Part shown: positions 6,353 through 28,941 of the stretch, piece by piece | How the letters are laid out: every line of letters begins with the position of its first letter | Position numbering within the stretch: the first letter of the stretch is position 1 | IMG/VR virus record: IMGVR_UViG_3300027985_000152 | Span: 1-29,375 of that record | Length of the DNA: 29,375 nucleotides | Origin: a virus | Strand: one strand, 5' to 3' | Made by a program: the position numbers and the translations under genes | The notes under the pieces: model-generated | What the model was told of the DNA's origin: nothing | Seen by the model: the letters and a program-made list of their open reading frames with translations, nothing else | Database searches by the model: none

Positions 6353-7618
6353 TCAGAGCGTGCTGTTGGTCTGGATCGGGATATTGACGGCGGTGATGAC
6401 CAGTGCGTGATCGGAGCCGCTGGACGGCTTCACGTTGTAGCCGCGCCAGTCGACCGGGTTCAGGTGGTCGGAGTGGATGCGGTCGGTGATCGCCTTGCCC
6501 TGGTAGGTCTTGGCGTCGCGGGTGCTGCTGTTTGCTGCCTTCTCGCGCGCGTCGTCCCAGCCAGGCAGCCAGGCGTTGTCGTTCACGCCGTCGCCGCCGA
6601 GGATGCGCGGACCCTGACCGTACTTCCGGATCGCCGCGATCATCTGCGACATCTGCGAGCGCTGCTGTGCATCCGTCGAGCGGCTGTTGGGCGTCAGGTG
6701 GTAGGAGCCGAACACGACTTGCTGCCCGGTGCTCTTGTCCTTCAGCACGCAGATCTGACCGCCCTGGTAGCTGATGCCCTTGAAGTCGACGGCGGTCTCT
6801 GCGGTCTCGGTGAGCCGGTCGGAGTCCCACATGATCGCCTGCGCGCCACGGGGACGGACCAGCCAGCGAGAGGCACCGCCCGGCATGGCGGCGCGCAGCA
6901 CGTCGCGGATCGCCTCGGGGCATTCGTTGAGCAGATAGACGTCGGCCTTCGCCTTCGCTGCCGTCTTGCCGAGCGCGGCGGCACGGGAGGCGGTCAGCGG
7001 CTTCGAGCCGGTCAGCGCGGGGTCCATCGTGTTGAACGTCGCGACCCGCAGAGCGAGCACGGTTGCGGGAGTGGGCGTGGGGTCGGGCGTTGGGGCGGGA
7101 GTGGTTGCGGTGACCAGCGCGTGCCACGTCAGCGGGCCGTCCACGCCGTCAGGAACGAGGCCGTGCGCCTTCTGGAAAGCCTTGACGTCGGTGTAGCCAA
7201 GCTCGGCGATACGGGCAGCCAAAGCGGCCGCACGGTGCTTGTCCTTGGCCCGGTAGTACCGGAAGTGCCACGCCTCGGACGGCACGGTCCGGAACCAGCC
7301 GTACTCCTGTGCGCGGATCTTCTCGCCGCTGTGAACGCCCATGGTCGAGCCGCCGGCGACCATCCACACCTGCAGCGTGCTCTTGCGGGTCACGTCGATT
7401 GCGAGGCCAGACTCGTGCAGACTGTGGCCCGGCTTCGCAGCGAGGTTGCCGCCGTGGTGGAGGTATGCGTCATAGAGCGCGGCCTGCTGTTCCCTGGTGC
7501 GTCCAGCGGCGGCCAGCCCGGTCAGGTTGCCGCTGTCGGCGACCATGCGCAGGTATGAAGCGGCAGCATCACCGGCCAGCCAGAACTTGCCGCCGATCGA
7601 CGTTACGCCGGCGACCAT
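6353..7618 (-). CDS. Modular endolysin: M15 peptidase + peptidoglycan-binding + EEP phosphoesterase/nuclease domain
   Basis: 421 aa from ATG 7618 (AGGAGG seven bases upstream; a GTG one codon earlier is possible). Residues 1-125 form a VanY/M15-type zinc peptidase with SLHESGLAIDV (H68, D75) and EAWHFRY (H118), predicted to cut peptide cross-links of peptidoglycan. Residues 138-169 (LGYTDVKAFQKAHGLVPDG...TW) are a PG_binding_1-like wall-binding repeat. A Pro/Thr linker (171-186) leads to a C-terminal 230 residues with the endonuclease/exonuclease/phosphatase fold motifs: ATFNTM (N196), LLNECPE (E232), GSYHL (H307), LGGDGVND (D343, N346) and SDHALV (D403-H404). Lysins rarely carry this domain; its substrate could be nucleic acid or a phosphate ester of the envelope. 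Coupled to an acidic microprotein upstream and followed by the holin. Confidence 0.88.
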   Translation of the reverse strand: MVAGVTSIGGKFWLAGDAAASYLRMVADSGNLTGLAAAGRTREQQAALYDAYLHHGGNLAAKPGHSLHESGLAIDVTRKSTLQVWMVAGGSTMGVHSGEKIRAQEYGWFRTVPSEAWHFRYYRAKDKHRAAALAARIAELGYTDVKAFQKAHGLVPDGVDGPLTWHALVTATTPAPTPDPTPTPATVLALRVATFNTMDPALTGSKPLTASRAAALGKTAAKAKADVYLLNECPEAIRDVLRAAMPGGASRWLVRPRGAQAIMWDSDRLTETAETAVDFKGISYQGGQICVLKDKSTGQQVVFGSYHLTPNSRSTDAQQRSQMSQMIAAIRKYGQGPRILGGDGVNDNAWLPGWDDAREKAANSSTRDAKTYQGKAITDRIHSDHLNPVDWRGYNVKPSSGSDHALVITAVNIPIQTNSTL

Positions 7619-7734
7619 CACTGCACCTCCTCGTCGGTGCCGTCCTCGGGCTCATCGATGGGCGGAGACCAGTCGTCGCGTTCGGCGTCCTGCTCCTCGC
7701 GCTGGGCGATCAGATCCGCATCGGATTCAGGCAT
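7618..7734 (-). CDS. 38-aa highly acidic microprotein coupled to the lysin
   Basis: From ATG 7734 the product is MPESDADLIAQREEQDAERD then a DE-rich tail ending GTDEEVQ; over a third of the residues are Asp or Glu. The stop overlaps the lysin start (TGATG), so translation is coupled, and the lysin's ribosome site lies inside its last codons. No TM segment. It could be only a translational leader, a lysis regulator, or an acidic DNA-mimic-like inhibitor of the lysin's EEP domain; the last is speculation based on charge and position. Confidence 0.5.
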   Translation of the reverse strand: MPESDADLIAQREEQDAERDDWSPPIDEPEDGTDEEVQ

Positions 7735-7775: not shown

Positions 7776-8216
7776 TCAGTCCGTGCCGCCGATAGCGTCC
7801 GACCACAACTCGTCGTCGACACCATGCTTGAGCAGTTGCTCGGGCGGCTGAGGAAGATCACGCGGCGGCATTCCGCTGTCGATCCACTTTCGGATCGCCA
7901 ACCCCAGTCGGTTGATGAAAGAGGCTGCCGCAGTCAGGTCTCCCCGCTGCGCCTCATTCGCTTCCCGCAGTGTCCGAACGTCGTCCTCAAGCTTCCCCAG
8001 CCGTGTATAGAGCTGGCTGCGATCGAGATACAGGTTCGCGATGAACCCGCCGAGAGCGACGATGACGATCCCGAGGATCGCGTTCTCGACCGTGAACAGC
8101 GGACCCCTGAATCCGGGCGCGGTAGGTATCAGCAGGCCGACGATGACGCTCAAAGCTGCGACAAGAACGAGCACCCACAGCGGGCGAGCGTTCAGGATCA
8201 GCTTGATCTTGGTCAC
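7776..8216 (-). CDS. Membrane protein with coiled coil, probable lysis accessory
   Basis: 146 aa from GTG 8216. Two transmembrane helices at about 12-30 (PLWVLVLVAALSVIVGLLI) and 47-63 (ILGIVIVALGGFIANLY) are followed by a charged heptad-like coiled coil (about 69-95, LYTRLGKLEDDVRTLREAN) and a Pro-rich soluble tail. Such proteins are frequent between minor tail genes and endolysins of actinophages, where they may act as a second holin, antiholin or spanin-like factor. It sits 3 bp after a small tail gene and 41 bp before the acidic microprotein gene. No family is firmly recognised. Confidence 0.65.
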   Translation of the reverse strand: MTKIKLILNARPLWVLVLVAALSVIVGLLIPTAPGFRGPLFTVENAILGIVIVALGGFIANLYLDRSQLYTRLGKLEDDVRTLREANEAQRGDLTAAASFINRLGLAIRKWIDSGMPPRDLPQPPEQLLKHGVDDELWSDAIGGTD

Positions 8217-8599: not shown

Positions 8600-10360
8600 T
8601 TACGGTGCGAGCAGATAGCCGGCGTCAAGAACTCCTTGCACCGGATCGTCGAGGATGAACAGGCGGCTGTAGACGTCGGGGCTGGTCGTTAGCGTGATTG
8701 TCCAGACGCCATCCCCGATCTGTTCCTCGATGCCCTCCACGATGAGGATCTCGCTGGCGGGCATGATCGCGGACGGCAGGCTGGTGATCTCCACCCGATC
8801 CCCGACCTTGATTCCCACCAGCGTTTCCTGCTCAGCGGCAGGCAGGGTCGCGAGGTCGAAACTGAGCTTCGACAGCCGGGCCTTCATGGGCGAGTTCACC
8901 AGCCAGTCGGCCATCGAGCGATCCTGGCTCCGGCTCGCATGCACGCCTTCGATGCTCAGCGAGGCCCTGCGTCCGTCAGTCCGGGTCGCGGTGTAGCTGG
9001 TGCCGTCGGGCCACGTCACGGTCACGTCCGAGTACCATCCGACGTCTGAGGTTTCCCACGTCACGGACGGTTCGACACGGTAAGCGGGAAGCGTAATTGG
9101 CGTTCCGCTCGGCGGGAAGTCGACCCAGGTCAGGGTGCCGTCGAGGTTGTCCGCTACCCGTGCGCCCATCCCCACGGCGAGACTCTGCAGCGCATCGGAT
9201 GCCTCGCGGCCTTCGATCGGTGGGATGACCGCATCCCCCACCGCTCCGCCGGAGATCGTCGGCCCATCGGCCCACGTCGATAATTGGGAGGCGACCGTAA
9301 CACTGTCGGGGATGCGCGTTCCGAACATCAACGAGGCGAACGCCTCGGCGGACACCCCGGGCGCAGTGTTCGACCCGAACACCAGCAACGGACCCGCGGT
9401 CCAAACCGCGCCGCCCGTCAGGTTCGGACCTAGAACGATCTTGCTCAGATTCACGATCGGCGTAAAGAGCGCTCCTGTGTCGTAATAGCTGCCGGGTGCA
9501 TCCCAGTATCGAACATGCATATCCGTGTTGCTGAGGAACCACACGTCAAGGATCACCGGCCACGACGCCGGCAGTCCGGTCGCTGTTCCCGTCCCGATCG
9601 ACTTGAGGTAGAAGCCCGCCGAGGACGACCACGACACCGTGTCTTTGTCGCTGATTTTGATCAGGTCCACAGATGCGGTCGGGGCGGACTGGATGGGCAG
9701 CAGTATGTGCCAGATATCAATCCTGGGAAGCCCGGCGACGGTCAGTGTCAGTCCACCCGATCCTGCAGTGAACTTCGGGTGCTCGTCCGTGCCTTCCTCC
9801 AGCGGAAGCAGCGACGAGACGCCGGCACCGAGACCGTCGCCACCGTTGCTGGTCATCGTCGCATCCCCGATGAGTGACGAAATCGGGGCATCGGTTCCGC
9901 GCATCGGGAAGTAGTAGAGGAGTGGCGGGTAGCGTCGCGCCATCTCGTCCAGCGCCTGCCGAAACTCGTACTGCGGGAACGCGCCGAACACGTCGGTCAC
10001 CGTGACGGTGCAGCGCGACTCGTTCGCCAGCGCCGACAGTAGCTCGACCGACCACGACTGCACCGTGCCGTAGAACCGCTTGTAGTAGGTGCCGTTCGCC
10101 AGCATCGAAAGTCTGATCGCGACATCCTCCACCACGTACGGGTAGTACGGCGACGCGGCCAATTCAGGGCTGAACCTGCCGTCATCATTGACCAGCACCA
10201 CCGACCATGTGCCAGGGCTCAGCGGATCGCCCGTCTCGTCGTCGCGGCCCCGGTTGATCTGCATCGTGCGCGACGTGTCCACGTAGGCAGAGACGTCGGT
10301 CCAGTTGGTGCCGTCGAACTGCACCTCGACCTTCAGCGCGTCCTTCGCGTACCAGCTCAT
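8600..10360 (-). CDS. Minor tail protein (distal tail/baseplate-like)
   Basis: 586 aa; ATG 10360 overlaps the tape-measure C-terminal frame's stop (ATGA). The N-terminus (VEVQFDGTNWTDVSAYV, then INRGRDDETGDPLSPGTWSV) matches the start of actinophage minor tail proteins that begin with a Dit-like beta domain. A middle part (about 160-340) looks like a concanavalin/LamG-type jelly roll. The C-terminal part (from about GREASDALQSLAVGMGARV) resembles tail-hub/Tal-like repeats of these proteins. It should form the tail tip just below the tape measure. Length is normal for the role. Confidence 0.8.
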   Translation of the reverse strand: MSWYAKDALKVEVQFDGTNWTDVSAYVDTSRTMQINRGRDDETGDPLSPGTWSVVLVNDDGRFSPELAASPYYPYVVEDVAIRLSMLANGTYYKRFYGTVQSWSVELLSALANESRCTVTVTDVFGAFPQYEFRQALDEMARRYPPLLYYFPMRGTDAPISSLIGDATMTSNGGDGLGAGVSSLLPLEEGTDEHPKFTAGSGGLTLTVAGLPRIDIWHILLPIQSAPTASVDLIKISDKDTVSWSSSAGFYLKSIGTGTATGLPASWPVILDVWFLSNTDMHVRYWDAPGSYYDTGALFTPIVNLSKIVLGPNLTGGAVWTAGPLLVFGSNTAPGVSAEAFASLMFGTRIPDSVTVASQLSTWADGPTISGGAVGDAVIPPIEGREASDALQSLAVGMGARVADNLDGTLTWVDFPPSGTPITLPAYRVEPSVTWETSDVGWYSDVTVTWPDGTSYTATRTDGRRASLSIEGVHASRSQDRSMADWLVNSPMKARLSKLSFDLATLPAAEQETLVGIKVGDRVEITSLPSAIMPASEILIVEGIEEQIGDGVWTITLTTSPDVYSRLFILDDPVQGVLDAGYLLAP

Positions 10361-10644
10361 GCGAAGGCCTTGATGTCGAACGGGCGGCCGCGACGGGCGC
10401 GAACCTCGCTCCGCAGGCCGGTCACGAAGTCACGAGCGACCTTGCGGCCATCAGTGGCCCCCCGGAAATCCATGTTGATCTGGAACACATCCCCCCCCAT
10501 AGCCGAACCCGACTTCGACAGCTGCTGCTGGTTCATGATCTTGCCGGTCTGGTCGGGCACGAAGACCTCCCAGCCGCGCTCACCGACCACGTAGGGCTGA
10601 CCGCGATAGGTTGGGCCGCCGAGGGCGCGGGCGGTGAACTTCAT
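10357..10644 (-). CDS. Tape measure protein C-terminal part in a shifted frame
   Basis: The 95 codons following ATG 10644 read FTARALGGPTYRGQPYVVGE and RGWEVFVPDQTGKI, the standard ending of phage tape measure proteins ('GGp...GqpYvVGErGpElfvP'). It lies in the +1 frame relative to the tape measure ORF and overlaps it by 65 bp. No ribosome site is visible before the ATG; the preceding bases are a GGCGGCGGCAGG run. Its own frame is open upstream to about 10726, so both frames can be joined anywhere across the overlap. It is most simply the detached end of the same protein, through an indel, an assembly error or a programmed shift. The stop overlaps the next gene's ATG. Confidence 0.7.
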   Translation of the reverse strand: MKFTARALGGPTYRGQPYVVGERGWEVFVPDQTGKIMNQQQLSKSGSAMGGDVFQINMDFRGATDGRKVARDFVTGLRSEVRARRGRPFDIKAFA

Positions 10645-11821
10645 CCTGCCGCCGCCCTTGACCGAGTACGCTGAATCGGATCTTGGTGCCGTCGAGCGCC
10701 TTGGCCTTCTTCTTCAGCGCGTCGAGACTCTTCGATGCTTCCTTTAGTGCCCGGATCGAGTCCTCAACCGAGTTGATCTGCCCGTCCCACGCCTTCTTGT
10801 TGGCCCCGAGCGCGCCGGTGCTGCCCCTGGTCGCGTGCGTGACCTCCTTGAAGCTCTCCGCAGCATGCTGGTTCATCAGCCACTGAACAGCCGCCACGCC
10901 AGACACGTTGTTCATCGCATTCGCGAACCAACTCAGTGCGCTCGTTGAGTCGCTCAACTGCGATGAGATGTCATTGAGCCCCGCGGACAGGCCGATCACC
11001 GTATCTATGAAAGGTCTCAGAGCCGAGTCGTTTTCACCTACCGCATCGGTGAAGTTGATCGCTGCCTGCGTCACGTTGTCGAATGCGGGCAGCAACTCCT
11101 CACCGAGTTTCTGCTGCATCTGGCCGATCGCCACAGCCTGGATGTCAGAGCCCTTCGCGGTGGCCTTCGCGACGCCACCCACCTGCGACTCGATCGCCGC
11201 AAGAATGACCTTCTGCGCTTCGAGCGTCTTACCCGACTTGACCAGTGCTGCGATCTGGTCGCGCTCCTGGTCGGTGAACGTCACGCCAGCCTTACGGAGC
11301 GCAGTCAGGCCCTTGACCGGATCCTGCAACGCCTTGCCTAGCTGGGCAGCGTTCGTCTCCATCGTGCCGAAGCCGGTCGCAGCGAGATCGGCTGCGGCAT
11401 CGGTAGCACGCTCGAAGATGCCTGCCTGCATCGCGGTTTCGTTGGAGACCGCCTTGAACGTAGCGAGCTTCGCCTCGGTCGACTTGATGATGTCGTCGTC
11501 GACACCGATCTGCATGGCGAGCTTGTCGGCGTAATTCTCGGCCTGCTCCGCCGCGCGTCCGGTGGTGTCACCCATCGACTTGAACACCTGCTCGAGGCGG
11601 GCATTCGACGCCACCGACTCCTCGCCAGCATCCCGGAGATCGCCCAGCACCTTGACTGCAGCCGAGATCGAGACGCCGGCCGCAATACCCTTCAGCGCCG
11701 AGCCCGCCAGCGTCGACTCCTTGGCCGCCCCGTTGGCAGCCTTGCCGACGTTCTTCAGCGCCTTCGAAGCCGACTTGTCCTCGCCGACGAGCAGCATGCG
11801 GAGGGTCACATCGTCGGCCAT
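10580..11821 (-). CDS. Tail tape measure protein (main part)
   Basis: 413 aa from ATG 11821 (AAGGGG upstream; a GTG at 11827 overlaps the chaperone stop). MADDVTLRMLLVGEDKSASKAL is the usual start of actinophage tape measures, with Ala-rich helical heptads throughout (KNVGKAANGAAKESTLAGSA). A segment resembling phage minor-tail/TMP helical repeats covers about 80-260 (FGTMETNAAQLGKALQDPVK, GLTALRKAGVTFTDQERDQI). The protein sets tail length and is threaded through the tail tube; with the shifted end it totals about 500 residues, on the short side for siphoviruses. The last 35 codons of this frame (QGRRQDEVHRPRPRRPNL) are Arg/Pro-rich out-of-frame sequence, showing that the frame is broken near 10670. 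Confidence 0.85.
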   Translation of the reverse strand: MADDVTLRMLLVGEDKSASKALKNVGKAANGAAKESTLAGSALKGIAAGVSISAAVKVLGDLRDAGEESVASNARLEQVFKSMGDTTGRAAEQAENYADKLAMQIGVDDDIIKSTEAKLATFKAVSNETAMQAGIFERATDAAADLAATGFGTMETNAAQLGKALQDPVKGLTALRKAGVTFTDQERDQIAALVKSGKTLEAQKVILAAIESQVGGVAKATAKGSDIQAVAIGQMQQKLGEELLPAFDNVTQAAINFTDAVGENDSALRPFIDTVIGLSAGLNDISSQLSDSTSALSWFANAMNNVSGVAAVQWLMNQHAAESFKEVTHATRGSTGALGANKKAWDGQINSVEDSIRALKEASKSLDALKKKAKALDGTKIRFSVLGQGRRQDEVHRPRPRRPNLSRSALRGR

Positions 11822-11823
11822 GC

Positions 11824-12407
11824 TCACCCCTTTAAGTTGTCACGCCACGAGTCGACCGCTGAGCAGTAGCCGCGGAAGATGAAGAACGGGAGATCCCACA
11901 CGCTGGCGTAGGAGATCGACGGGTACAGGTGTGACAGGTCCACGATGTAGGAGTGCACCTCGTCGCGGATCTGTTGGTTGGTCCCTAGCGGCTCTTCCTG
12001 CGCTTGCCGCCCTTGCGCTTGCCTGCCCCCGAAGTAGATGGGGGCCGGTGTTTTGCCTCGTCGTCACCACCCGAGTCCATGTCTCCGGTGTCCTTGAAGT
12101 AGCCGAAGTCGTCGAAGTCATCCTCCGTCGCGTCCACCAGGTCGGTGATCGCCAGACGCTCCCCGGTCGCCCGCATGGCCGCCCACACCTGTACGAGCGT
12201 GCAGAAGTGCAGCTCGACCGCAGACCGCATCTCGTCCTTCGGCATCGCCGCGACTCTGTTCACCTCAGCAATGATCTGGTCCACTGTCCGCAGCGACGTG
12301 TACTCGGCTCCGACAAGCTGCGTCTGCAGCGTCATCACGTCGCGCGCCGTCATCCCGTTCAGCGGCACGAAAGGATACCGCTTGCCCTTGAACTGCCAGT
12401 AGCCCAT
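11824..12407 (-). CDS. Tail assembly chaperone, -1 frameshift (G-T type) product
   Basis: The 12407 frame is read to the A-run at 12054-12051 (codons GCA AAA, codon 119 = AAA), then continues in the -1 frame as TPAPIYFGGRQAQ and on through EEPLGTNQQIRDEVHSYIVD to WRDNLKG, stopping at 11826-11824. The -1 frame is closed by a TGA just before the A-run, which limits where slippage can occur. The fused protein would be 194 aa. Programmed -1 shifts between two chaperone frames just before the tape measure gene are a conserved feature of long-tailed phages (lambda gpG/gpGT). The extension has no ATG of its own. Exact slip site is inferred. Confidence 0.8.
11985..12407 (-). CDS. Tail assembly chaperone, unshifted (G type) product
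   Basis: 140 aa, ATG 12407 overlapping the preceding stop (TGATG). The start MGYWQFKGKRYPFVPLNGMT and the helical middle (RTVDQIIAEVNRVAAMPKDE, LHFCTLVQVWAAMRATGE) fit actinophage chaperones of the tail tube and tape measure. The C-terminus becomes acidic (ATEDDFDDFGYFKDTGDMDS) and then Lys/Arg-rich (GKRKGGKRRKSR), the latter being the part replaced on frameshifting. It should coat the tape measure during assembly and be absent from virions. The short form is expected in excess of the shifted form. Confidence 0.85.
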   Translation of the reverse strand: MGYWQFKGKRYPFVPLNGMTARDVMTLQTQLVGAEYTSLRTVDQIIAEVNRVAAMPKDEMRSAVELHFCTLVQVWAAMRATGERLAITDLVDATEDDFDDFGYFKDTGDMDSGGDDEAKHRPPSTSGAGKRKGGKRRKSR

Positions 12408-14575: not shown

Positions 14576-15114
14576 GCGAAACCACCCACCGGACGCCAGC
14601 GGGCCGTAAGCTTCCACGCGATCGGCGGCAGCAGGAGATCCGGATCGACATTCCCGGCAACCTCAGCGACCGGGTTCGGACGCAACTCTGTGCCGCGCCC
14701 GTCGTGCTGCCCGTTCCACACAGACTTGATCGTCGCCATCGCCGCGGCAGTGATCGAGACCGGCTGCGGGATCCCGTACGCCCACACGATCACCTCATCG
14801 CCAGCCTCATACGACGGCCACGAGATCGTGAGTGTCGGAGCCGACCAAGACCAATAGTCCTCATCGATCCGGCGCCCCTTGATCAGCACGTCGAACACGG
14901 TCCCGGACGCCCACGGGGTCGTGATCGGGGAAGCCTTGCGGGTCTGGTAGGAGTCCTTCAGCTCCGACAGCCGACCGACCACGCGGGGAGACTCGAACGC
15001 CTCGGTGACCAGCGGAATCCAGATGGTGCTCAGTTCGGCGTCGTTCTCCGTGTGGGCACCGTCGGGCCAGCCGAGCGCGGAACGGGCCTGCGCCAGAGTG
15101 AGGATGTCGGTCAT
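14572..15114 (-). CDS. Head-tail connector protein (adaptor-like)
   Basis: 180 aa, ATG 15114 overlapping the glycosyltransferase stop (ATGA). MTDILTLAQARSALGWPDG is the usual opening of Gram-positive phage head-tail connectors (gp6/gp15-like), with an all-helical start (NDAELSTIWIPLVTEAFESP) and a beta-rich insert (PTLTISWPSYEAGDEVIVWA). It should bind beneath the portal to extend the channel. The order portal-protease-capsid-(GT)-connector supports the call; the inserted glycosyltransferase is the only departure. Confidence 0.7.
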   Translation of the reverse strand: MTDILTLAQARSALGWPDGAHTENDAELSTIWIPLVTEAFESPRVVGRLSELKDSYQTRKASPITTPWASGTVFDVLIKGRRIDEDYWSWSAPTLTISWPSYEAGDEVIVWAYGIPQPVSITAAAMATIKSVWNGQHDGRGTELRPNPVAEVAGNVDPDLLLPPIAWKLTARWRPVGGFA

Positions 15115-16469
15115 CGCGTCCCTTTCCGGATAGCTTCAAACCGTGTCCCAGCAGGATGGCGGGAGTCGTACAAGGCATCATCAGCAGCAGCCAACGCCAA
15201 CAGTTCGGGGCTAGCCTCGGTCGCCTCGCCGGCGTTCATGTGCAGACACCACGCTTCAGGGACACGGACTACACCGTGCGCCGCGGACGCGTCGGCGATC
15301 AGTTGGAGATCGCCCGAGTACCACCTGTAGGACTCGTCCGGCCGCACGCCGTGTGTGGCGTTGAGCACAAAGCAGTGACCGGAGGGTCCGTGGTCTTCGC
15401 CGAGCAGGGCCAGGGTTGCGTCGCCCATCGCGTGAACCATCTTCGGCAGCGTGTCCGGGGCAATCACCACATCGTCATTCAGGACGGCGACACGGGTGCA
15501 GCCGCGCTCTGCAAGGATGTCAATTCCGGTGTTCCACCATTGGTGGATGTTGAAGTCTTCTTGCGGCACCGTGACGGCCGGCAGGTTTGGGGGATCGCCA
15601 GCGCCAGTCCACACGACCACGACTCGCTCGATCGGCAGGCCTGATGCGGCGATGGTCGCCGCCAACAGGTCCGGATGATTGCCACGGGTCGGGATCACCA
15701 AGCCGAACCGGTCGCCAAGGGGTGCCACGGGCTGCTGCTCAAGGAACTTGTTCTCGGTGAGCAGCGCAGACTTGTGGTGACCGATCTTTGCCCGCGTGTC
15801 GACATGAACCGGGATGCCCAACTGCCCGGCCCGCAGGCAGAACGCAATGTCCTCACCAACCGGACGATCCCCCAACTGGACCTCTTGGAACCAGGGGAAC
15901 GCATCGTTGAACTTGTGGTCCCGGATGCGCTCAAGAACCGAACGGTGGATCAGCACGAACGCGGCACCAGTAGCGGCGCACTGCACGAGCGAGTCCCGCG
16001 GGTAGTCCTCCACGCGGTAGGTGGCGATCCCGCCATCGTCGAGCTTGACGAACTGATAGACGGTCGGCACCAGTTTATCCTTGACCATGCCGAAGCACAG
16101 GCCGCCGACGATGGGGCGCTCTACTGGATCGGCCGATTCAAGCAGGTAGTCGATCGCGCTGGGCTCCCACTGCATGTCGGCGTCGATCCACAGCAGCCAG
16201 TCGCCTACCGTGCGCCCGTCCGGGGTGCGCGAGTCGAGGAACCGGGCTGTGACCGTGTTGCGGGCGCTCGACACGTTCGCCGAGGACCACTCCTGCATGA
16301 TGTTGACGATCTGCCGGCGCGGCTTGTTCAGGTCCGAGAGCAGCGAGACGATCAGTGACTCGGTGAAGTAGGAGCTGACCTGCCCCGGGTGGATGTAGGC
16401 GATCACGACGCCCGGGATGTGGCCGGGGCTCGTGGTGGATTTGGTGGTGGTTCGTTGCTTGCGTGCCAT
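15111..16469 (-). CDS. Two-domain family-2-like glycosyltransferase in the head module
   Basis: 452 aa, ATG 16469 with GGAGGA upstream. Two GT-A-type halves are visible. In the first (about 18-245), SSARNTVTARFLD is followed by WLLWIDADMQW with D96-A-D98 as the sugar-nucleotide/metal motif, CAATGAAFVLIHRSVLE, and GEDIAFCLRAG (E206-D207) at the catalytic-base position. The second (about 255-452) has GLVIPTRGNHPDLLAATIAA, VVVVWTGAGDPP, VAVLNDDVVI (D332-D333) and a Rossmann-like rest. It probably transfers sugars to virion proteins, as reported for some actinophages, or to a host surface molecule. It lies directly between capsid and connector genes, preceded by a 225-bp gap with two hairpins. 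Confidence 0.82.
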   Translation of the reverse strand: MARKQRTTTKSTTSPGHIPGVVIAYIHPGQVSSYFTESLIVSLLSDLNKPRRQIVNIMQEWSSANVSSARNTVTARFLDSRTPDGRTVGDWLLWIDADMQWEPSAIDYLLESADPVERPIVGGLCFGMVKDKLVPTVYQFVKLDDGGIATYRVEDYPRDSLVQCAATGAAFVLIHRSVLERIRDHKFNDAFPWFQEVQLGDRPVGEDIAFCLRAGQLGIPVHVDTRAKIGHHKSALLTENKFLEQQPVAPLGDRFGLVIPTRGNHPDLLAATIAASGLPIERVVVVWTGAGDPPNLPAVTVPQEDFNIHQWWNTGIDILAERGCTRVAVLNDDVVIAPDTLPKMVHAMGDATLALLGEDHGPSGHCFVLNATHGVRPDESYRWYSGDLQLIADASAAHGVVRVPEAWCLHMNAGEATEASPELLALAAADDALYDSRHPAGTRFEAIRKGTR

Positions 16470-22362: not shown

Positions 22363-22647
22363 TCACCAGTCGTACGTGGTCACCGGGTTGGTCTGGCTGA
22401 TCAGGTAACCCTTGCTGTCGTTGCAGTAGGTGTGCCCTGGACCTGAGTCCTCTCCCGTTCCGCCATGACGCACCGCACGCCCGTGGCTTAGGTGCCATGG
22501 TTGCCCATCCCAGTTCATCGCAGGATCCGCGTAGACGAGATGCCCGCAGCCCTCGACGCATGGCACGGGGCCGATGTTGGTCAGGTACCACGTCCAGTAG
22601 GCGCGTCCGTCCCTGTGTGTCTTGCTGTTGTAGGCGGGATCAGCCAT
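22363..22647 (-). CDS. HNH nuclease next to the terminase
   Basis: 94 aa, ATG 22647. GPVPCVEGCGHLVY (C30, C34) and the core WHLSHGRAVRHGG (H55) then GPGHTYCNDSKGY (H72, C75, N76) fit the beta-beta-alpha metal fold of HNH nucleases, in a compact 'H...H..CN' form. HNH proteins directly upstream of terminase are conserved in many cos-type HK97-like phages, where they assist DNA cutting and packaging. Its position just before terS supports that role here. It is smaller than HK97 gp74 (about 119 aa). Confidence 0.75.
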   Translation of the reverse strand: MADPAYNSKTHRDGRAYWTWYLTNIGPVPCVEGCGHLVYADPAMNWDGQPWHLSHGRAVRHGGTGEDSGPGHTYCNDSKGYLISQTNPVTTYDW

Positions 22648-24805: not shown

Positions 24806-25233
24806 CGGCAGCACCCGCTCTCATCGTCCGCCGCTGGCGGTTCGTAGCGCTGATCGGTGGGCCGCAGAATCGGCTCTGTGGCGTCCTCAGCCCTCGCGCG
24901 AGGCGTGGTCTCGTCTGGAAGTTGATCTCGCCACCGAACCGCCGCAAGTCGGAAGTGTCGCAGCCCCCGGTAGTAGTCCTCGATCGCGCTCCCGAGTTCG
25001 TCGGATACGTCATGGCGGCCGTCGAAGATGGCTTCCAACCTCATCCCTTCGAGCGCCCCGTTCATCATCGGTTCCAGTTCGTTGAGCTCATCGAGTGCGG
25101 ATTGCGGGGCCGCCTTAGTCCGTCTCGGCCACTCCTGTCGGTCGTAGCCCTGATGCGCTTCGGTGTGACCATCGCGGAGATGGCAGATGTTGTCCGGATT
25201 ACCCGGCTGCCACGCGTAGCACTTGGCGGTCAT
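24802..25233 (-). CDS. Hypothetical 143-aa protein with N-terminal Cys/His motif
   Basis: ATG 25233 overlaps the HNH stop (ATGA). MTAKCYAWQPGNPDNICHLR then DGHTEAHQGYD carries C5, C17, H18, H23, H27: a possible zinc site resembling short 'C...C.l..gH.g.H' motifs seen in actinobacterial and phage proteins. The middle is an acidic helix bundle (ALDELNELEPMMNGALEGMR, SAIEDYYRGLRHFRLAAVRW) and the tail ends GCCR. No enzymatic motif. Unknown function. Confidence 0.6.
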   Translation of the reverse strand: MTAKCYAWQPGNPDNICHLRDGHTEAHQGYDRQEWPRRTKAAPQSALDELNELEPMMNGALEGMRLEAIFDGRHDVSDELGSAIEDYYRGLRHFRLAAVRWRDQLPDETTPRARAEDATEPILRPTDQRYEPPAADDESGCCR

Positions 25234-25964
25234 GCTGCCCTCCTGAACGGGCTATCGATCAGGCCCAGCGCGATAGGGTCCTCAATGCCTGAGCGCTGAA
25301 AGGCGGCTAGGTCGTAGAGCGGATCCTCGGGCCACGACAGCCGTGCCTCGGTGAGTTCACGGTCTGCCTTGAAGCCCTCCATCGCACGCCTCAGGTGCGG
25401 CCCCAACTTCCGGAGCTCAGAGTCGGTCCAGTCCATCGCGTAGAGGATCTTGTGCTTCTTGCGCCGGAGCACCTTGTGGGCCAAATCGCGGCGCTTCGTG
25501 ATGTTGTGCTCAGGGAAGGTACCGATGGCCGAGTTGCAGAACCCGCAGCTTGGCACTACAGCGACGAACTGCCGTCTCGCGTCTCCCGTCATCGTTCGCG
25601 GCAGCAGGTGGTCCTTCGTTCCCGCTGGGTTTCCGCAGTAGACGCAGACGCCCGGCGGGTAGGCGATCTTGGTGGGTACCTGAGTGAACATGTGTGCCGG
25701 GTTGAGGCACCAGTTGCCGCATGTCGTCAGAATCCACGCCCAGGGCTGGAGGTCGGTGTCGGATGCGGTCTCGAAGACGACGCGAGCCTTCGTCTGATAG
25801 GTGCCGGCAGTCCAGTTGGATGCGACGAGCATGCAGTCTTGGGTAGGATTCATGGCTAGCCACTCCTTGGTGTAGTCAAGCGAGTCGGTCAGCGTCCGAG
25901 CGATGTTTCCAGCACCCTCGGACGCGCTCCAATTGTACCTGAATGGCTCGACGCGACTAGGCAT
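25230..25964 (-). CDS. HNH endonuclease with a long N-terminal region
   Basis: 244 aa, ATG 25964, overlapping the previous gene by 8 bp. The core is at 107-144: CVYCGNPAGTKDHLLPRT (C107, C110, D118-H119) then VVPSCGFCNSAIGTF (C140, C143, N144), typical of HNH nucleases with a zinc-binding Cys quartet. The first 100 residues (QDCMLVASNWTAGTYQTKAR, CGNWCLNPAHMF) may be a DNA-recognition region; the last 100 are helical. Likely DNA-nicking or cutting; it may be a mobile nuclease or a defence/packaging helper. It is coupled to downstream genes. Confidence 0.75.
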   Translation of the reverse strand: MPSRVEPFRYNWSASEGAGNIARTLTDSLDYTKEWLAMNPTQDCMLVASNWTAGTYQTKARVVFETASDTDLQPWAWILTTCGNWCLNPAHMFTQVPTKIAYPPGVCVYCGNPAGTKDHLLPRTMTGDARRQFVAVVPSCGFCNSAIGTFPEHNITKRRDLAHKVLRRKKHKILYAMDWTDSELRKLGPHLRRAMEGFKADRELTEARLSWPEDPLYDLAAFQRSGIEDPIALGLIDSPFRRAA

Positions 25965-27952: not shown

Positions 27953-28387
27953 TTGCGACTCCTCCTCACAGAACGGGCAGCCGCTCACGGTGGTGCGCCG
28001 ACCGACGTGCCACCGCATGTGCGCGCCCTTCTCGCCGGACACTGAGCGGGACTCCCGAATGGCCTCGATCTCGTCCGCGGCGCGCTGGTGGGCCAGATAG
28101 TCGTGGCACTCGACGTATCCGTTTCGCTGCACCACCAGGGGCTCTCGGTCAGGCATGAGGACTGGCGGCGCCATCAGCTCCCTGCGCGCTTTCTGGGTGC
28201 CCATCTCGCGCCACACGGAGTCGGGAATCTTGCCGTCGGCCTCCAGGCGGGACACGAAGCACCATGCCCGGATCAGCAGCCGGAACGCACCGTCAGACAG
28301 TGGCGCAATCTTCGCGTGGTCTGGCATCTCGTGAGCCACAATGATGCCTGGTCTGTCGTCCTTCTTGGGGCGGTCCTTCTTCGTCAT
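27944..28387 (-). CDS. Probable replication-initiation/winged-helix DNA-binding protein
   Basis: 147 aa, ATG 28387 overlapping the HNH stop (ATGA). VAHEMPDHAKIAPLSDGAFR LLIRAWCFVSRLEADGKIPD then VWREMGTQK is the winged-helix start of a family of actinophage proteins resembling replisome organisers ('hpKi..Ls..a..l.......cs....DG.ip'). It continues EPLVVQRNGYVECHDYLAHQ, RSVSGEKGAHMRWHVGRR and ends with GCPFCEEESQSA. Family members often have Ser/His/Lys-rich tails; this one stops just before the repeats that could have encoded such a tail. Replication function is inferred. Confidence 0.65.
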   Translation of the reverse strand: MTKKDRPKKDDRPGIIVAHEMPDHAKIAPLSDGAFRLLIRAWCFVSRLEADGKIPDSVWREMGTQKARRELMAPPVLMPDREPLVVQRNGYVECHDYLAHQRAADEIEAIRESRSVSGEKGAHMRWHVGRRTTVSGCPFCEEESQSA

Positions 28388-28941
28388 TCGTCACCAACCA
28401 GGGCGCGGGCAGCCTCGATTCGCTCGGCGAGCATGTTCTTGGTGACTCCCATGAAGTAGCGGAACTCGTCCGTCTTCACCCACGGCTTCGTCATGGTGGC
28501 GCGCACAGCGTGCTCTAAGTCATCCATAGCTAGACCGCTGTCGAGTTGGCGTAAGATCGCGTCTTCCCAGTCGACGGGCAGCGGTACGGTCTTGCCGCTC
28601 GGGTACTTCCAGGAGTCCCAACACTCGCGGAACTGGTCGAGAGTCTTCTTGGTTGCGCGCCGCTTCCTGGTTGCGATCGTGGTTGCGCGCTTCATGGCGG
28701 CGGCCCACCGGATCGCGTCTTTGTCTACCTGTTCCACCAGGGATGCGTCCGGGCTGCTCGACGACTTCCCGAAGTTGCAGTCTCGGCACGCGGCAACCAG
28801 GTTGGCCGGCTCATCGGTGCCGCCGAGGGAGACCGGTACTACGTGGTCGATCGTGAGTTCGTTGTCTTTGGATCGGCAGTAACGACAGGTGTAGTCGTCG
28901 CGTCGAAGTACCTCGAATCGGGTACGCTTGGAAACAGCCAT
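28384..28941 (-). CDS. HNH endonuclease (classic McrA-type core) with C-terminal helical domain
   Basis: 185 aa, ATG 28941 overlapping the 37-aa gene (TGATG). RFEVLRRDDYTCRYCRSKD (C19, C22), LTIDHVVPVSLGGTDEPANL (D32-H33, N47) and VAACRDCNFGKSS (C52, C55, N56) form a complete HNH motif with its zinc quartet. The C-terminal half (LDQFRECWDSWKYPSGKTV then LEHAVRATMTKPWVKTDEFRY) is helical and resembles replication-associated domains of phage proteins. The combination suggests a nuclease involved in phage DNA metabolism. Coupled to the replication-like gene. Confidence 0.82.
   Translation of the reverse strand: MAVSKRTRFEVLRRDDYTCRYCRSKDNELTIDHVVPVSLGGTDEPANLVAACRDCNFGKSSSSPDASLVEQVDKDAIRWAAAMKRATTIATRKRRATKKTLDQFRECWDSWKYPSGKTVPLPVDWEDAILRQLDSGLAMDDLEHAVRATMTKPWVKTDEFRYFMGVTKNMLAERIEAARALVGDE

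Follow-up and report, generated by a model that had tools for sequence, protein, structure and literature searches.

An actinophage endolysin in which an M15 peptidase is joined to an EEP-type domain, a putative second lysis enzyme

Endolysins are usually described as peptidoglycan hydrolases combined with binding domains. The endolysin gene considered here continues, beyond a peptidase and a wall-binding repeat, into a long C-terminal part that had been predicted from the sequence to be an endonuclease/exonuclease/phosphatase (EEP) domain, and the locus thereby raises the questions of whether such a fusion is real, whether the added part is indeed an EEP domain, and what it might cut. The window, that is, the whole stretch of DNA analysed, was the IMG/VR virus record IMGVR_UViG_3300027985_000152 with a length of 29,375 bases. 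Its terminase was 55% identical to that of the Mycobacterium phage Brujita, and the window virus was therefore regarded as an actinophage.

The endolysin gene and the recurrence of its C-terminal module

The positions of the features are listed in Table 1. The open frame of the endolysin could start with the GTG at 7621, which gives 422 codons with V1 encoded by GTG, or with the ATG of the next codon at 7618. Residues were numbered from the GTG in this study, whereas the original prediction, with the coordinates 6353-7618, gave numbers lower by one; both its coordinates and its residue numbers agreed with the ATG start. The VanY family of Pfam (PF02557) matched the N-terminal part with an E-value of 4e-6 and 27.1 bits, against a cut-off of 25, and the zinc motif of the M15 peptidase was formed by H69, D76, and H119. 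The following peptidoglycan-binding (PGB) repeat was matched by Pfam over residues 146-169 (PF01471); its score of 22.6 bits was slightly below the cut-off of 23, and the scores in the close copies L002 (23.9 bits) and L005 (23.6 bits) were above it. The protein also matched PHROG endolysin families. Hydropathy analysis revealed no hydrophobic segment in the lysin, neither a signal peptide nor a membrane segment. The continuous frame, the Pfam matches, and the EEP homology described below confirmed that a single real gene encodes the peptidase, the wall-binding repeat, the linker, and the EEP domain, and the fusion can be accepted as genuine with near certainty.

Table 1. Features of the endolysin locus in the window and lysin-EEP genes on bacterial chromosomes
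Feature	Location	Strand	Remarks
Endolysin gene (M15 peptidase, PG-binding repeat, Pro/Thr linker, EEP)	6353..7621	minus	422 aa
M15/VanY peptidase core, residues 35-123	7253..7519	minus	Pfam PF02557
PG_binding_1 half-repeat, residues 146-173	7103..7186	minus	PF01471, 22.6 bits
Pro/Thr linker, residues 174-187	7061..7102	minus	Homology to the unrelated L004 lysin starts within the linker
EEP domain (by homology), residues 188-422	6356..7060	minus	N197, E233, H308, D344, (N347), D380 (probable), D404, H405
Apparently exchangeable module (linker and EEP)	6372..7093	minus	92.9% DNA identity in L004, after Amidase_2
Holin candidate, upstream of the lysin	7776..8216	minus	Small protein with two hydrophobic segments (hydropathy)
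Acidic ORF, stop overlaps the lysin start	7618..7734	minus	38 aa, 16 D/E, 2 K/R; conserved in L002 and L005
L037 (L037/L044)	G509		Amidase_2-PGB-EEP
L041	G509, C1 near 1504937-1505449		M15-PGB-EEP
L048	G510		Amidase_2-PGB-EEP
L046	G554		Amidase_2-PGB-EEP
L049	G512, 3-kb contig		M15-PGB-EEP

The same lysin was found at about 95% identity in L002, L003/L016, and L005, which originated from different assemblies. L003 and L016 contained the 3' and 5' parts of the lysin on the same contig, and L003 was identical to L005 over 1,330 bases. A different join was present in L004, the contig IMGVR_UViG_3300027985_000277 of an unrelated actinophage with a G+C content of 57%. L004 shared 722 nt with the window at 92.9% identity, corresponding to the linker and the EEP domain, and the DNA homology ended at both domain borders; besides these 722 nt, only a few short matches to the window were found in the L004 stretches compared. 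In L004, the module was fused behind an Amidase_2 domain (E 5.5e-8) with no PG-binding repeat detected by Pfam. The relatives of this Amidase_2 domain were lysins of Streptomyces, Mycobacterium, and Gordonia phages, and the L004 lysin was located immediately downstream of a holin gene (PHROG E 7.8e-15). Because the 722 nt were common to the Amidase_2 lysin of L004 and the M15 lysin of the window, the linker and the EEP domain look like a mobile unit that has passed from one lysin core to another and can be attached to different ones. L002 and L004 were from one metagenome and their modules differed by about 9%, which argued against a chimaera. The original prediction would have been overturned by an assembly artefact joining two genes at the linker, and such an artefact is excluded for all practical purposes by the identical join in L002, L003/L016, and L005, by the differing join in L004, and by the same layout in the homologous bacterial gene L049.

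The fusion was rare in the collections searched. Scans of viral contigs with varied queries and profiles showed no EEP lysin besides three close copies, and beyond these copies the M15 query found only weak or repeat-only lysin matches. A tblastn search of 50,697 GenBank phage records with four EEP queries revealed no relative (two queries had no match at E 1, one had none at E 0.1, and the window domain had seven unrelated matches at E 7-10), which bore out the earlier expectation that the fusion is uncommon. A plasmid search returned VanY peptidase matches only, and no EEP-endolysin fusion was found in the papers searched. The LysA-type endolysins of actinophages are modular, and their domains are shuffled between phages by horizontal exchange (Payne and Hatfull, PMC3314691); the words "nuclease" and "phosphatase" are absent from the main text of that survey of mycobacteriophage endolysins. 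Similar to these enzymes, the window lysin is a peptidoglycan hydrolase of modular build whose gene lies near a holin candidate and whose domains appear to have been exchanged, but it differs from them in that a domain of predicted phosphoesterase fold is joined to the peptidase. The modularity of endolysins is well known, and the EEP add-on looks new.

Homology and active site of the C-terminal domain

Pfam gave no EEP match (PF03372) for the window domain even at E 10, and the PDB search with the C-terminal part as a single sequence did not recognize it as EEP. In BLASTP, the domain was aligned with P0001 (E 6e-9, 25% identity over 193 residues), an EEP protein of 310 aa that apparently starts with a signal sequence and is encoded in an actinobacterial genome that also carried L005. 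P0001 itself matched PF03372 over its full length with an E-value of 7e-4, below the cut-off. Further EEP proteins were obtained by searching 197 related-family genomes with a profile containing the window sequence. A profile of 25 EEP relatives from which the window was excluded matched the window domain with an E-value of 1.7e-16 (Z=177,635), the relatives having initially been gathered with the aid of the window sequence, which is a mild circularity; in the control, the best of 200 shuffled copies of the domain reached only E 780. L037, the Amidase-PGB-EEP homologue (E 1.5e-8), and L049 each exceeded the Pfam cut-off for PF03372 independently. Alignment of the EEP relatives with the window domain by hhalign gave 98.7% over 230 columns. 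L049, which had the same three-part layout, was 39% identical to the window lysin over 287 residues that began in the M15 domain and reached into the EEP domain (E 3e-52). The PDB entries matched by profile A3, two of whose six rows were window-type, were 3g6s (E 2.7e-11), nocturnin, sphingomyelinase C, and a mannosyl-6-phosphatase, with weaker matches to LINE-1 endonuclease, ExoIII, and Tdp2. The pLDDT from AlphaFold was 36.7 for the full lysin predicted from a single sequence and likewise 36.7 for the EEP domain predicted from four near-identical sequences, too low in both cases for a usable model. The profile comparisons argue strongly that the C-terminal domain is an EEP homologue, and we infer its EEP fold, a four-layer alpha/beta sandwich, from this homology.

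According to the original prediction, every EEP landmark was present in the domain. The invariant columns across six EEP sequences included N, E, H, GD, and SDH, and the lysin residues at these columns were N197, E233, H308, G343-D344, and S403-D404-H405. Nearly all of the landmarks were therefore found, but two deviated: the GDxN motif was altered to GDGVN, which is longer by one residue, and the conserved Asp further along, which belongs to VD(Y/H) in the relatives, was best matched by D380 of KAITDRIH, as aligned by hhalign. At this column, a simpler alignment placed a His and another alignment placed D391, the Asp of VDW; D380 is the probable equivalent of the conserved Asp. The catalytic sites were identical in all window-type copies. 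Pairwise dN/dS was 0.10-0.16 for the EEP domain and 0.08-0.14 for the M15 part, and since both values were low, both halves of the lysin appeared to be maintained by purifying selection. Judged from its sequence, the EEP domain is likely to be catalytically active, but the altered GDGVN motif and the loss of the active-site residues in the relative L041 weigh against catalysis.

Chromosomal relatives and the rest of the phage record

Among the 197 related-family genomes, lysin-EEP genes were present in four, namely G509 with two, G510, G554, and G512 (Table 1), in a count that covers the 29 best loci plus L041. The chromosomal L037/L044, L046, L048, L049, and L041 had the same domain order as the phage lysins, but they differed in being mostly lone genes and, in the case of L041, in a degenerate EEP active site. 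The genes on their readable flanks were bacterial-looking, and no phage structural genes were seen there. An interpretation of these relatives as prophages was thus not supported, and they look like mostly lone chromosomal genes. In the EEP domain of L041, the catalytic residues (N, E, H, DxN, and SDH) were no longer present, and the domain is either a pseudoenzyme or in decay; the lysin part was kept, and catalysis by the EEP domain is therefore not essential there. The P0001-type proteins contained a homologous EEP domain as well, but they had apparent signal peptides and no peptidoglycan hydrolase domain. In many genomes of the G001/G509 family, several EEP paralogues were observed, often in tandem, which may represent a lineage-specific expansion; several of those read had apparent signal peptides together with fibronectin type III-like repeats. 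Beside the Amidase-PGB-EEP gene of G509, an island (L039, 5246-10751) with an integrase, a SIR2-like-looking protein, and an ATPase-like ORF was noticed by eye, and it is possibly a defence island.

Several other genes of the window, all on the minus strand, were also observed. The tape measure gene (10580-11827) ended out of frame, and an ORF of 95 aa in another frame (10357-10644) continued with what looks like its true C terminus, a frameshift that is either programmed or due to a sequencing error. The gene of a glycosyltransferase-2-like protein of 452 aa (15111-16469) separated the major head gene from the connector genes, and a 202-aa protein (1336-1944) was similar to the processivity factors (sliding clamp) of phage DNA polymerases (PHROG 947, E 1.2e-11). 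Four HNH-type endonuclease-like ORFs were identified by eye at 2050-2751, 22363-22647, 25230-25964, and 28384-28941. PADLOC found no match, so nothing pointed to a known role in defence.

Possible substrate and role of the EEP domain

Our preferred reading, advanced tentatively since somewhat less than half of our confidence lies with it, is a two-enzyme actinobacteriophage endolysin, in which the wall would be cut and a metal-dependent phosphoesterase would then act outside the membrane with nucleic acid as its first-choice substrate. Because the lysin had neither a signal peptide nor a membrane segment and was encoded behind the holin candidate, it would accumulate in the cytoplasm and cross the membrane upon opening of the holin; the candidate itself matched no holin family, only PHROGs of unassigned function. 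By homology, the M15 domain would cleave the peptide part of the peptidoglycan, aided by the PG-binding repeat. The C-terminal EEP domain, in which nearly all catalytic residues were kept, may be a metal-dependent phosphoesterase that hydrolyses a phosphoester outside the membrane while the cell lyses or afterwards. It could remove the nucleic acid spilled from the burst cell, by which the progeny would be freed from DNA-laden debris, and the linker and EEP domain would serve as one exchangeable unit for attachment to various lysin cores. Nucleic acid is placed slightly ahead of envelope phosphoesters as the tentative substrate, a choice favored by the basic character of the EEP domain (pI 9.4) and of most same-family bacterial EEP relatives (many with pI 9-10.5), as well as by the practical benefit at lysis. 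However, before lysis the phage DNA would be exposed to a free Mg-dependent DNase in the cytoplasm, a danger unless the enzyme needed outside conditions (e.g. calcium) or was held by a partner, and the PDB neighbors of the profile act on many substrates.

With a substrate in the wall or in lipids, the phage DNA would not be at risk from the enzyme in the cytoplasm. The EEP domain could hydrolyse envelope phosphoesters, either in phosphodiester-linked wall glycopolymers of the teichoic-acid type or in the head groups of phospholipids and lipoglycans, and would take the position of LysB as a second enzyme directed at the envelope; we consider this possible, at roughly one chance in three. The domain was carried by two kinds of wall-targeted lysins, M15 and amidase, and the neighbors of the profile included EEP enzymes with lipid or glycan substrates (sphingomyelinase C and the mannosyl-6-phosphatase). 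To our knowledge, there is no EEP teichoicase. No subfamily signature was found in the domain, and the inositol 5-phosphatase motifs were unmatched beyond the four letters TDRI. Inositol polyphosphate 5-phosphatases contain the motifs WxGDxN(F/Y)R and PxW(C/T)DR(I/V)L, and the corresponding segments of the window read ILGGDGVND and KAITDRIHS; a PI-directed EEP enzyme of this kind was rejected on these motifs. The phosphatidylinositol anchor of lipomannan-type glycolipids, which the original prediction had named as an example of an envelope ester that might be cut, gained no specific support. Lysin B is a mycolylarabinogalactan esterase, a separate serine-esterase protein in phages of mycolate-bearing hosts. 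Like Lysin B, the EEP domain would be an extra actinophage lysis enzyme besides the peptidoglycan hydrolase, but unlike Lysin B it is in the same chain as the peptidase. A Lysin B esterase was rejected as the identity of the domain because no alpha/beta hydrolase match was found in Pfam or NCBIfam and the domain is homologous to EEP.

A role of the EEP fold as a module for binding the wall or another polymer, with catalysis secondary or lost, is unlikely. The C terminus is the position of the cell-wall-binding domain in many endolysins, the EEP domain of L004 follows the amidase with no PG-binding repeat detected by Pfam, and L041 retains the domain despite its lost active site. The window-type copies, however, kept all seven residues N197, E233, H308, D344, D380, D404, and H405, at the low dN/dS given above. 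Even less probable is a more elaborate mobile module in which a nuclease-type EEP domain swaps between unrelated lysins and, in the M15-type phages, a translationally coupled acidic peptide inhibits it before lysis, sparing the phage DNA, so that spilled host DNA is destroyed after the lysin has left the cell. The acidic ORF whose stop overlaps the lysin start was shared by L002 and L005, which differ elsewhere as phages, but it was absent beside L004 and beside the chromosomal EEP lysins; the peptide is therefore no general partner of EEP. A selfish, homing-like passenger spreading in frame between lysin genes is very improbable: the linker and EEP domain do form a nearly exact unit common to unrelated phages at 93%, and the EEP superfamily includes mobile-element endonucleases (LINE-1 was among the neighbors), but the architecture was kept over long divergence in homologous lysins (L049, 39%), domain exchange without homing is general in actinophage lysins (PMC3314691), and a single swap with no empty site was seen.

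Should the EEP domain prove to be an active enzyme, it would provide a ready-made lysin add-on for DNA-rich biofilms or phosphopolymer-rich walls. The chromosomal lysin-EEP genes raise the question of whether such lysins have been domesticated by bacteria. As for the phages themselves, the conservation and apparent exchange of the predicted phosphoesterase domain point to a mode of lysis in which some actinophages target a second polymer, either spilled nucleic acid or the phosphate-linked polymers of the envelope.
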